Below are positions 19,847 to 35,042 of a DNA stretch of 38,419 nt, piece by piece. The number at the start of each line of letters is the position of its first letter. Within the stretch, counting starts at the first letter, position 1. A program made the translations under genes and the position numbers. This DNA is from Bacteroidota bacterium. GTDB taxonomy: Bacteria; Bacteroidota; Rhodothermia; Rhodothermales; Bin80. The DNA lies in NCBI GenBank assembly GCA_028873925.1, contig JAPPNA010000092.1:1-38419 (forward strand), in the 5' to 3' direction. A model generated the notes under the pieces. It was not told the DNA's origin and made no database searches. It saw only the letters and a program-made list of their open reading frames with translations.

Positions 19847-21085
19847 ATGAAGATTCTGCATTGCGCTGATATTCATTTCGGGGTAGGTACCTACGGACGT
19901 ATTGACCCCAAGACGGGCCTCAACACCCGGCTGCTTGACTTCAAGCGCAGCTTCCAATTCCTGGTATCAGAGGGGATACGCGAAAACATCGATGCCTTTC
20001 TCTTCTGCGGAGATGCCTTCCATACGTCGAACCCAACCCCGACACAGCAGCGCGAATTTACCGAGTGCCTGCTGCCGCTGGCTGACCATGGCATACCCAT
20101 CATCATGATCACCGGCAATCACGACCACCCGGTGGCACACGGCAAGGCTTCCTCAATTGACATTTTTCGGCACCTCAAGGGTGTAACCCATGTGTTCCGT
20201 CGTGCGGACCGTGCCGTAATTGAGACTAAGTCGGGCCCGCTGCAGCTGATCGCCATGCCCTGGCCCGTTCGCAGCCTGCTGCTTTACGGCAGACAGTGGC
20301 AGGAAAAATCCGCCGCCGACCTGCCCGCGTACATAGAACAGCTGTACACTTCCCGGATTGCCAGCTATGCGAAGGAGCTGGATCCGTCGCTTCCCACCGT
20401 ACTGGCGGGCCACTTTACGGTCCAGGGCGCGGTCCTAGGGCAGTCCGAAAGCACTCGGATGATCCAGCATGAACCCAAGTTTACGACCTCAGCACTGACG
20501 GTGGAACCTATAGACTATGTCGCGCTGGGCCATATTCACCACCACCAGAATCTCGCCCCCACGACCGACTCCGTGCCGGTCGTCTACAGCAGCAGCATTG
20601 AACGCGTGTCGTTTAAGGAGCAGGGCAACCCCAAAGGGTTTGTGCTGGTTACCATTACGGGCGCTCCCAAGCGGACATCGTACCGATTTGTGGAGACCCC
20701 GGCGCGCCGCTTTATAAGTGTTAAGGTGGACCTCTCCCGATCCCAGCACCCCACCCGAACGCTGCTGCGGCGTATATCCACGGCTAACATCAAAGATGCC
20801 ATCGTGCGGGTCCGATACAGAATCACCGAAGCACAGCGGTCCGAGCTCGATACCGGGCAGATCCGCGCCGCACTCCAGTCCGCGCATGCGATCGCGGCCA
20901 TTGAGCGCACCACCAATCCCATTGAGCGCGAACAACGCTCCGATGTTACCGGGGAATCCACGCTGGAAGAAGCCTTGGATGGCTATGTCCAGCAACATGA
21001 GCACCTTGTGCCGCTTCGAAAAAAGCTGCAGGCCGCCGCGCGTGGAATTGAGCGGGAGGTCTTCAATCCAGTCTCCGCAGCGTAA
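19847..21085 (+). CDS. sbcD: SbcD/Mre11-like DNA nuclease subunit
   Basis: A 412-aa metallophosphoesterase with SbcD order of motifs: CADIHFG (Asp8, His10), FCGDAFH (Asp56), GNHDHP (about 101-106), LAGHFTV and ALGHIHHHQ. The remainder carries an Mre11/SbcD capping-type region and a charged helical tail. With SbcC the family makes a nuclease that opens hairpins and protein-blocked DNA ends. No sbcC gene follows; the next gene is on the other strand, so the partner must be elsewhere or the protein works alone. ATG 19847 is preceded by AAGGG right after the PBP1A stop; the open frame extends further upstream inside PBP1A but that part is not family-like. Its last 23 bases overlap the 3' end of the sulfatase gene. 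Confidence 0.87.
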   Translation: MKILHCADIHFGVGTYGRIDPKTGLNTRLLDFKRSFQFLVSEGIRENIDAFLFCGDAFHTSNPTPTQQREFTECLLPLADHGIPIIMITGNHDHPVAHGKASSIDIFRHLKGVTHVFRRADRAVIETKSGPLQLIAMPWPVRSLLLYGRQWQEKSAADLPAYIEQLYTSRIASYAKELDPSLPTVLAGHFTVQGAVLGQSESTRMIQHEPKFTTSALTVEPIDYVALGHIHHHQNLAPTTDSVPVVYSSSIERVSFKEQGNPKGFVLVTITGAPKRTSYRFVETPARRFISVKVDLSRSQHPTRTLLRRISTANIKDAIVRVRYRITEAQRSELDTGQIRAALQSAHAIAAIERTTNPIEREQRSDVTGESTLEEALDGYVQQHEHLVPLRKKLQAAARGIEREVFNPVSAA

Positions 21086-32196: not shown

Positions 32197-34011
32197 ATGA
32201 CTGGCTCAAATCTGGACACTCACCCGCCGCGCACCCACACCTGCGGTGCCCTCACCGAAGCGGATATCGGCAGGCAGGTCATACTCAAGGGCTGGTCTGA
32301 CACCCGGCGCGACCTTGGTGGTGTCATATTTGTGGATCTTCGGGACCGCTACGGACTCACGCAGGTGGTTTTTTCGCCCCAGGACGATGTGCAGGCGCAC
32401 ACGTCAGCCGAAGAGCTGCGCAATGAATTTGTGATCTCGGTATGTGGAACGGTCCACGCACGTTCAGCGGAAACGATCAATCCCAAACTGGCCACGGGAC
32501 GCATTGAGGTTCGTGTCACAGAGCTGCTGATTCTGAGCAGATCTGCGCCCATGCCGTTCCAGGTGTCGGTGCACACGCAGGAAAGCCAGTTGGCCGGCGA
32601 AGATCTGCGACTGAAGTACCGATATCTGGATTTGCGGCGCCCCGCCATGCAGCAGCGTCTGATTACACGCCACCGCGCCTACCAGGTAATCCACCGCTAC
32701 TTTGATGCCCGTAACTTTGTGGAAGTGGAAACACCCACGCTGATGAAGTCCACGCCCGAAGGAGCGCGGGACTACCTGGTCCCCAGCCGGGTGCACCCCC
32801 ATGCCTTTTACGCCCTGCCCCAAAGCCCCCAGACCTACAAGCAGCTGCTTATGGTATCCGGGCTTGACCGATATGTGCAGATTGTCAAGTGCTTTCGTGA
32901 CGAAGACCTTCGGGCTGACCGGCAACCGGAGTTCACCCAGATAGATGTGGAAATGGCCTTTGCTACCGAAGATCTCGTATTCGGGCTGACGGAAGGGCTG
33001 ATGCAGAGGATGTGGCAGGAGATTCTGGGGGTGGAGGTGGCGATACCGTTTCCGCGGTTGCCGTATCGGGAGGCAATGCGGACTTACGGGTCTGATAAGC
33101 CGGATCTGCGGTTTAACCTCACGATTCAAGAGCTGACGGACAGTTTCCGAGGCTCCGGCTTTCGCGTGTTTGACCACACCGTGGACCAGGGCGGCCATAT
33201 TGTCGGGCTGGTCGTGCCCGGCATGGGTGATCGCGGACGCGGCTATATGGACCGGTTGGACAAACAGGTGGTCCGGCGCAGGATTGGGGCGGGCGGCCTG
33301 ATTTACATGCGCGCCCCCTCCAGCGGTGCACCGCCGACTTGTTCGGTCAAGTCGCATGTACTGCCGGAAGACTATGTGCGGGCGGCGCTCAGCACGTCGG
33401 GTGTACGGGCCGGTGACCTGCTGCTGGTGCTGTGCGGCCAATGGCCGTTGGTGCAGCAGCAGATGGGGGCGCTTCGGCTGCACATGGCCCGTGAACTTGG
33501 CTGCATCGACCGCCATCAATGGAAGTTTGCCTGGGTGACTGACTTTCCGCTGGTGGAATGGGATGCGCGCGAACAGCGGTATACAGCTATGCACCACCCG
33601 TTCACATCGCCGAAGGCGGATGATTTGGAACTGCTGGCATCGGATCCCGGTCATGTTCGGGCCCGTGCCTATGACATTGTGCTCAACGGCCATGAAATCG
33701 GCGGCGGTTCCATCCGCATTCATGATTCGGCCCTTCAGCAGCGGATGTTCGATCTGCTCGGCATCAGCCGGCGGGAATGCGAGGAACGGTTCGGCTTTCT
33801 TCTGGAGGCCCTACGGTACGGGGCACCGCCGCACGGTGGCATAGCGATGGGACTGGACCGTATCGTCATGCTGCTTACCGGCACCGAATCGCTTCGGGAC
33901 GTGATTGCGTTTCCCAAGACGCAAAGCGCGCAGGAGCCGATGTCAGGCACCCCGGCGAGTGTGGAGCCTCAAAAACTCAAAGAGCTCCATATCCGGTCTG
34001 CCGACCTATGA
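32197..34011 (+). CDS. aspS: Aspartyl-tRNA synthetase
   Basis: A 604-aa class II synthetase that charges tRNA-Asp in the cytoplasm. An N-terminal OB fold (about 1-115) includes HTCGALTEADIGRQV and GVIFVDLRDRYGLTQVVF. Catalytic motifs include KYRYLDLRRP, STPEGARDYLVPSR, ALPQSPQTYKQLLM, FRDEDLRADRQPEFTQ, the bacterial GAD insertion (about 290-420), ALPL-like HHPFTSPKADD, LNGHEIGGGSIRIHD and GIAMGLDRIVMLLTG. The length and the insertion identify the bacterial type. Its stop codon overlaps the ATG of the pyrophosphatase-like gene (ATGA), so the two are translationally coupled. Confidence 0.97.
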   Translation: MTGSNLDTHPPRTHTCGALTEADIGRQVILKGWSDTRRDLGGVIFVDLRDRYGLTQVVFSPQDDVQAHTSAEELRNEFVISVCGTVHARSAETINPKLATGRIEVRVTELLILSRSAPMPFQVSVHTQESQLAGEDLRLKYRYLDLRRPAMQQRLITRHRAYQVIHRYFDARNFVEVETPTLMKSTPEGARDYLVPSRVHPHAFYALPQSPQTYKQLLMVSGLDRYVQIVKCFRDEDLRADRQPEFTQIDVEMAFATEDLVFGLTEGLMQRMWQEILGVEVAIPFPRLPYREAMRTYGSDKPDLRFNLTIQELTDSFRGSGFRVFDHTVDQGGHIVGLVVPGMGDRGRGYMDRLDKQVVRRRIGAGGLIYMRAPSSGAPPTCSVKSHVLPEDYVRAALSTSGVRAGDLLLVLCGQWPLVQQQMGALRLHMARELGCIDRHQWKFAWVTDFPLVEWDAREQRYTAMHHPFTSPKADDLELLASDPGHVRARAYDIVLNGHEIGGGSIRIHDSALQQRMFDLLGISRRECEERFGFLLEALRYGAPPHGGIAMGLDRIVMLLTGTESLRDVIAFPKTQSAQEPMSGTPASVEPQKLKELHIRSADL

Positions 34012-34472: not shown

Positions 34473-34885
34473 GATCCCGTAGCTCAGTTGGAAGAGCATC
34501 TGACTTTGAATTGGAGCCTTGTGCGGGAAACCGCACAAGTGGAGGCTGCTGTATGCTGGGACACCCTAAAGCCTGCACTACGCCGTCACGCGTGAAAATG
34601 TGCCGGATACATGGGTAATCAGCAGGCAACCTTGAATGAGTCAGGGATATGCCGAGAGCCGCAGCCTATGGTGACGCAGTTCTGCGACCCTATCGGAGGC
34701 CATGTTCCGCTCCTTTGCCGCACCAAGCGGATTCAGGAGAGCCCTCAGAGGCCATACGCAGCCCACCCGCCGCCGCCTCGTGCGGCAGGGTGAAGAGATG
34801 GTCCAGACCACAACAGTATATGGCCGGTGAAAGCCGGTGTGGCAGGTTAATCAGAGGGTCCCAGGTTCGAGCCCTGGCGGGATCA
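34473..34885 (+). tRNA. tRNA-Lys(UUU) interrupted by a group I intron in the anticodon loop
   Basis: Exon 1 is 34473-34506 and exon 2 is 34847-34885. Joined, they give a 73-nt cloverleaf: acceptor stem GATCCCG/CGGGATC (all 7 pairs), D arm GCTC/GAGC, anticodon stem TCTGA/TCAGA, loop CTTTTAA, T stem CCAGG/CCTGG with TTCGAGC, and discriminator A. The anticodon TTT reads lysine codons, and the anticodon arm matches ordinary bacterial tRNA-Lys(UUU). The 340-nt intron splits the anticodon between positions 34 and 35. CCA is not encoded (CA follows), so it must be added after transcription. Without splicing the tRNA could not function, and it is the only tRNA-Lys gene visible here. tRNA-Leu(GAG) follows 9 bases later, so one transcript is likely. 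Confidence 0.93.
34507..34846 (+). ncRNA. Group I intron (IC3-like, related to cyanobacterial tRNA-Leu introns)
   Basis: A 340-nt intron without a reading frame. It follows group I rules: U before the 5' splice site (exon end CTT), a guide GAG at 34514-34516 that pairs with the exon end through a G-U pair, and a final G at 34846. The 5' part reads TGAATTGGAGCCTT, then a 9-bp P2 stem with GAAA loop (34518-34539), then AAGTGGAGGCT, closely like the cyanobacterial tRNA-Leu(UAA) intron. The core element TAATCAGCAGGCAACC lies at 34617-34632. P7 is GACC at 34686-34689 paired with GGTC at 34800-34803, inside GAAGAGATGGTCCAGACC. A short P9 hairpin with GAAA loop is at 34824-34837. The self-splicing class and site are inferred from these landmarks; the full fold was not computed. 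Confidence 0.9.
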
Positions 34886-34894
34886 CACTTATTG

Positions 34895-34978
34895 GCCCGG
34901 GTGGCGGAACAGGTAGACGCGCTGTCTTGAGGGGGCAGTGCCCTTATGGGCGTGCTGGTTCGATTCCAGTCCCGGGCA
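34895..34978 (+). tRNA. tRNA-Leu(GAG)
   Basis: An 84-nt class II tRNA. The acceptor stem is GCCCGGG/CCCGGGC with discriminator A. The anticodon stem CTGTC/GGCAG encloses the loop TTGAGGG, anticodon GAG at 34929-34931. A long variable arm GCCC-TTAT-GGGC and the T loop TTCGATT complete a leucine tRNA. It is uninterrupted, and the CCA end is incomplete in the DNA (ACCT). It lies 9 bases downstream of the split tRNA-Lys. Confidence 0.95.
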
Positions 34979-35042
34979 CCTCTCGCACGGAATGCCGGGA
35001 TGTCCGTTCTGACACCCGGCAGTCGGCCCAAACAGAACTGCT

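Follow-up and report, generated by a model that had tools for sequence, protein, structure and literature searches.

A group I intron splits the anticodon of tRNA-Lys(UUU)

The tRNA-Lys(UUU) gene in a 38,419 nt contig of the order Rhodothermales (the window, i.e. the whole stretch of DNA analyzed here) consists of two exons on the plus strand, at 34473-34506 and 34847-34885, which are separated by a 340 nt group I intron. Group I introns have long been known in the anticodon loops of tRNA-Leu, tRNA-fMet, tRNA-Arg and tRNA-Ile. We put a probability of about 90% on the reading that the tRNA-Lys insert is a self-splicing ribozyme which does not belong to subgroup IC3 and shares its origin with introns of tRNA-Arg(UCU); its splicing would be a property of the intron family to which it belongs. 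The gene and the elements of the intron are arranged as follows.

34473-34506, plus strand: 5′ exon of tRNA-Lys(UUU), ending ...CTGACTT at tRNA position 34 (ARAGORN, joined exons)
34507-34846, plus strand: 340 nt group I intron that starts with U and ends with G (RF00028, E = 1.1e-6)
34514-34516, plus strand: internal guide GAG, forming P1 with exon CUU at 34504-34506, with U·G at the 5′ splice site
34518-34539, plus strand: P2 hairpin with a GAAA loop at 34527-34530; 6/9 pairs changed on both sides
34544-34553, plus strand: P3 5′ strand GGCUGC-U-GUA, partner 34755-34763; 99% paired, one pair changed on both sides
34554-34558, plus strand: P4 5′ strand UGCUG, partner 34620-34624; invariant
34564-34615, plus strand: P5 and its extension, CUACG...GCGUGAAAAUG, with outer CCC/GGG pairs
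34625-34743, plus strand: P6 (GG/CC) and the long variable P6a extension, from the alignment; P6a covaries
34748-34754, plus strand: P7 5′ strand GAGGCCA with a bulged A, guanosine-site helix; pairs with 34799-34804 in 11/11 homologues
34764-34792, plus strand: P8, CACCC/GGGUG; invariant
34799-34804, plus strand: P7 3′ strand UGGUCC; invariant
34808-34842, plus strand: P9 helices, the inner one a CCGG/CCGG hairpin whose loop contains GAAA; both helices covary
34847-34885, plus strand: 3′ exon of tRNA-Lys(UUU), starting TTAATCAG, with discriminator A at 34885
34895-34980, plus strand: tRNA-Leu(GAG), the downstream neighbor, conserved with or without the intron

When the exons were joined, ARAGORN recognized tRNA-Lys(ttt) with the acceptor, D, anticodon and T stems all formed and UUU as the anticodon, which bears out the perfect cloverleaf that the first-pass annotation had described after removal of 340 nt. 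CCA is not encoded in the 3′ exon. The unspliced gene was missed by ARAGORN on the window and scored only 19 bits with the Rfam tRNA model. The borders CTT|...G|TTAA are found in all 18 homologues, in which the anticodon stem regains 5/5 pairs upon joining, and the intron spans 315-394 nt in the family Bin80 and 252-253 nt in Chloroflexota. Uninterrupted alleles in Chloroflexota sister genomes fix the borders exactly: the joined exons and downstream flank of the intron carrier G417 match the uninterrupted gene of G820 at 98 of the first 100 bases, and the G820 allele is a clean empty site for the intron. The insertion point is 34|35, which is also that of the tRNA-Leu(UAA) intron, as had been noted earlier. 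A shift of the borders by one base is ruled out by introns starting with C (L095, L098, L403).

Upstream of the split gene lies an ordinary aspS gene for aspartate--tRNA ligase (32197-34011); it was considered as a possible lysS and rejected. ARAGORN also reported a tRNA-Asn of 97 bases at 20872-20968 on the minus strand, which overlaps long ORFs and has no Rfam support. This is probably a false positive because the proper tRNA-Asn sits at another locus (L016).

The intron has the fold of a group I ribozyme

The window copy aligned to positions 1-253 of the Rfam group I model RF00028 with 33.1 bits (E = 1.1e-6 for 601 bases searched; 1.7e-6 in the genome-wide search), below the gathering score of 50 bits. 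The ~100 nt P6 extension probably accounts for the low score. L439, a 253 nt homologue that lacks this extension and comes from a genome related to the Chloroflexota carrier, reached 54.2 bits, above the gathering score. Together with the fold of 11 homologues, these scores support the original proposal, and the insert at 34507-34846 is a group I intron.

The landmarks listed by the first-pass annotation were also recovered. The 5′ exon closes with a U, which is paired with a G of the guide in P1 as read from the sequence, the intron ends with G in 18/18 homologues, and the guide GGAGCC is invariant in 11/11. For the remaining helices, we tested a structure comprising P2, P3, P4, P5, P6, P6a, P7, P8 and two P9 helices on an alignment of the 11 homologues, from which the variable loops of P5, P6a, P8 and P9 were trimmed. 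Helices P2-P9 including P7 were paired in 99.1% of cells, and 13 pairs were changed on both sides, against a mean of 5.7 in shuffled alignments and with 0/500 shuffles as high. Helix partners that were slid out of register were paired in 30-43%, i.e. without support. The pairs of P4, P5, P6, P7 and P8 are formed in 11/11 homologues and those of P3 in 99%, which gives the P3-P8 core with the P7 pseudoknot. As the pairs of P3-P8 are mostly invariant, covariation backs P2, P6a and P9 and not the catalytic core; the near-invariance of the catalytic pairs is consistent with purifying selection but, taken alone, is no proof that they form. The length of the Lys introns ranges from 252 to 394 nt, mainly due to the P6a extension. 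The longest ORF starting with ATG, GTG or TTG wholly within the intron is 60 aa long, so the intron encodes no homing endonuclease.

With this fold, the pre-tRNA would hold the CUU at the exon end against the guide GAG in P1, with U·G at the 5′ splice site. This site would be attacked by an exogenous guanosine docked in P7, and the freed U34 would then attack after the terminal G to join the exons as CUUUUAA.

The family appears to rely on splicing for lysine decoding

We searched other genomes for the same insertion, as the first-pass annotation had suggested. The intron was present in 16/16 genomes of the family Bin80 and, outside it, in two close Chloroflexota genomes (G417 and G822); the Chloroflexota sisters G820, G821 and G823 have an uninterrupted tRNA-Lys(UUU). 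No intact tRNA-Lys was found in the 16 family genomes using a degenerate pattern of the anticodon arm, and two near matches (L386, L390) were rejected as they had no tRNA context. Likewise, neither RF00005 nor ARAGORN revealed another tRNA-Lys in the genome of the window, which is 98.6% complete in 185 contigs; weak tRNA matches on C78 and C120 proved not to be tRNA-Lys. The second intact tRNA-Lys which the earlier reading had named as evidence against itself is therefore not seen in this genome.

These observations bear on two alternatives. Since splicing is known here by inference from the intron family, the gene might be a decayed pseudogene that is left unspliced around a dead intron. We regard this as highly improbable, because it is the sole detectable tRNA-Lys of its genome, the 16 family genomes show no intact copy, and conservation of the exons, splice borders and core extends across genera and into a second phylum. 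Even less credible is an artefact of assembly or binning. The window is one contig of a 185-contig assembly, but the same gene, site and intron recur in 16 separate genomes of the family, among them assemblies of one and of four contigs (G002, G004), and the two Chloroflexota genomes carry the intron between different exons.

Two more tRNAs are split in the genome of the window: tRNA-Arg(UCU) at 36|37 (L001 on contig C88; 65.8 bits to RF00028) and the initiator tRNA-fMet (L002 on contig C113; 56.4 bits). Each is the sole copy seen, and similar introns recur across the family. As the split genes for tRNA-Lys, tRNA-Arg(UCU) and tRNA-fMet are single-copy, loss of splicing should be lethal, and lysine decoding would depend on splicing. 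All lysine codons, AGA and translation start in this family appear to need three different self-splicing introns.

In other genomes of Rhodothermales, tRNA-Lys is intact; orthologues of the 5′ exon, CTGACTTTTAATCAG, are part of uninterrupted genes, and tRNA-Leu(GAG) follows in L050, L052, L053, L060 and L061. The intact tRNA-Lys beside the same tRNA-Leu(GAG) indicates that the genes are orthologous and that the family ancestor probably acquired the intron. A single gain is the probable course, with loss elsewhere as the alternative. The intron is now vertically inherited within the family, and it was probably exchanged between the family and one Chloroflexota lineage, in which the intron-plus and intron-minus alleles of one tRNA make gain or loss testable.

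The Lys intron groups outside the IC3 introns of tRNA-Leu

To place the intron, we derived a model, R1, from the Lys introns and used it to search 394 genomes of the phylum as well as 400 of Chloroflexota and 398 of Pseudomonadota. Within this set, scores above 140 bits were confined to the family and G417; G822 lies outside the sample and was found by its exons. The best among all other introns were those of tRNA-Arg(UCU) at 34|35 (L357, 83 bits; L210, 72; L358, 68; L359, 66), followed by further Arg 34|35, Leu and 23S rRNA introns at 50-61 bits, and then by Arg 36|37, fMet and other introns. A maximum-likelihood tree of 46 introns and 196 columns, which has several long branches, separated the Lys, Chloroflexota Lys, 23S and Arg 34|35 introns from the Leu, fMet, Arg 36|37 and Sphingomonas Lys introns. 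Support for this split was 100/100 for the full core and 99/95 for P3-P7 alone.

The first-pass annotation had regarded the intron as IC3 and akin to that of cyanobacterial tRNA-Leu(UAA), which would have moved to tRNA-Lys through the common CUU exon end. In keeping with this idea, both introns are inserted at 34|35 after CUU, pair CUU with GAG in P1 and have a similar GAAA-looped P2; the cyanobacterial and plastid introns are likewise not known to contain an ORF and persist vertically, and introns of tRNA-Leu(UAA) do exist in the same order (L077-L079). The host tRNA differs, however, and the Lys core falls in a different clade from the Leu introns tested, outside the Leu/fMet/Arg 36|37 group to which IC3 introns of the tRNA-Leu type belong. 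In addition, no Leu intron exceeds 60 bits with the Lys model, against 83 for the top-scoring intron of Arg 34|35. An origin from tRNA-Leu is therefore very unlikely, and the kinship with IC3 has to be given up. The comparisons instead suggest that the Lys intron represents a non-IC3 lineage shared with the tRNA-Arg(UCU) 34|35 and 23S rRNA introns. Its core motifs AUGCUGGGA, AAUCAGCAGG and CUCAGAGNCYAUACGC cluster with those of 23S introns and might point to subgroup IB.

Relatives of the Lys intron were not found by nucleotide search in phage, plasmid and E. coli collections. The core motif CTCAGAGRCYATACGCAGC had two matches in viral contigs, both of which are coding DNA and not introns. A broad degenerate pattern of the CUU exon and guide returned mostly chance matches before filtering for tRNA context; the filtered set yielded the Chloroflexota Lys, Sphingomonas Lys, Desulfobacterales Arg and phage Lys introns. 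The bacterial group I subgroups given in a review are IA1, IA2, IA3, IB4, IC1, IC3 and ID (PMC3984707).

Introns of tRNA-Arg(UCU) are the likelier relatives among tRNA introns

The target sites in tRNA-Arg(UCU), CUU|CUAA, and tRNA-Lys, CUU|UUAA, are one base apart. In the guide, the base that might pair with exon +1 is G in the Lys and Arg introns alike (U·G and C-G, respectively) and U in most Leu introns (A-U). With this small difference in the site and the same guide G, an Arg intron would require hardly any change to move to Lys. Judged from these sequences, Arg(UCU) 34|35 introns are likelier relatives of the Lys intron than Leu(UAA) introns are. The earlier idea of movement between tRNAs with a shared CUU end thus holds in that CUU matters, the Arg(UCU) site being one base off, but not in its IC3 source in tRNA-Leu. 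An intron of the Arg(UCU) type probably reached tRNA-Lys once, in the family ancestor, at a target that differed only at exon +1, and this difference makes site-hopping testable.

Introns at Arg(UCU) 34|35 (CTT|CTAA) are found in several phyla (L357, L358, L359, L360, L362, L365, L210, L446). Like the Lys intron, they follow an exon ending with CUU, start with GGAGCC-P2-GTGGA and end with GATGGTCCAGACCACAA...GTGGTA; unlike it, they have a smaller P5 and GUAG in place of CUCA at J6/7, and reside in another tRNA. We know of no description of group I introns at this position of tRNA-Arg(UCU), and they are possibly undescribed.

A simple origin from Arg introns may be incomplete, because in the P3-J6/7 segment the mean identity of the Lys introns is 0.65 to 23S rRNA introns but 0.49 to those of Arg 34|35. 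The nearest relative switches outside this segment: in P2-J2/3 the identity is 0.57 to Arg 34|35 versus 0.29 to 23S introns, and in P8-P9 it is 0.69 versus 0.49, the latter being unreliable as the model aligned into an ORF. The 23S introns in question, inserted at the GGTCCTAAGGTAGC site (L363, L364, L366), have the closest P3-P6 core and share CUCA at J6/7, and their P5 extensions are similar in shape to that of the Lys intron, a likeness that is weak when flanks are left out. They differ in their rRNA host, in an ORF located in P8, and in unrelated P1-P2 and P9.

The Lys intron might accordingly be a mosaic of a 23S intron core (P3-P6) and an Arg(UCU)-type periphery (P1-P2 and P8-P9), an account that concerns the origin only and is compatible with self-splicing. 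The switch in segment identities fits this picture, as does the whole P4-P6 strip, which scores z 4.8 to 9.5 against shuffles in comparison with the 23S introns; 23S introns with LAGLIDADG genes are moreover found in the same order. However, P3-P7 is subject to a structural constraint common to these introns, the P5 extension without its flanks reaches only z 3.7, 1.7 and 0.6, and the P8-P9 value of the 23S introns is unreliable. We treat the mosaic as a lead, not a result, and on balance rather doubt it. Neither the direction of the move (Arg to Lys) nor the sequence of transfers between phyla is firmly given by one tree of 196 columns.

At a little short of even odds, we would go further and suggest a second, unrecognized lineage of bacterial tRNA introns in tRNA-Lys(UUU) and tRNA-Arg(UCU) 34|35, which would combine a 23S core with a tRNA-intron periphery, hop between sites differing by one base, and have made lysine decoding in this family ribozyme-dependent.

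The LAGLIDADG-encoding 23S introns at the GGTCCTAAGGT(AGC) site (L083, L085, L086, L100, L363, L364, L366, L370) come from other genera of the order, and the cores at GGTAGC sites are near that of the Lys intron.

Other split tRNAs and earlier reports

The introns of fMet, Arg 36|37 and Ile2 resemble the Lys intron in being group I introns of the anticodon loop that can hide essential tRNAs from tRNA finders. They differ in host tRNA and position, and those of fMet and Arg 36|37, which were included in the tree, belong to the other clade. Owing to such introns, 36 genomes are reported to have no detectable fMet or Ile2 gene (PMC8450103). tRNA finders and surveys of gene content will similarly score the genomes described here as devoid of a lysine tRNA.

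A group I intron has been claimed in cyanobacterial tRNA-Lys(CTT) (PMC5733544). We do not accept these inserts of 22-49 nt as group I introns, because they are too short for the core: RF00028 has 253 positions and the smallest Lys intron here is 252 nt. In open PMC papers, we found no bacterial tRNA-Lys described as carrying a genuine group I intron. Within that literature, the present case may be the first report; it would add tRNA-Lys to the hosts of genuine group I introns, with a lineage of tRNA introns distinct from IC3, the usual group.

Two further introns split tRNA-Lys(UUU) at 35|36 and are independent of the 34|35 Lys introns. In Sphingomonas solaris (L171, NZ_VNIM01000024.1), the intron is IC3-like, and the genome also has a separate intact tRNA-Lys(CUU) (L397). 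The other is located on a viral contig, IMGVR_UViG_3300032038_000037 (L297:950-1600, minus strand), and encodes a PD-(D/E)XK endonuclease (Pfam PF11645, E = 3e-30). This contig is that of a tailed phage, with tail fibre, gyrase, RecJ and DnaB genes and at least 12 tRNAs in an array. The phage introns known by 2014 were all in protein-coding genes according to a review (PMC3984707). In the same order as the window, one genome (G023) carries another group I intron (L063, 89 bits) in a tRNA with the anticodon CAT, either elongator Met or Ile2.
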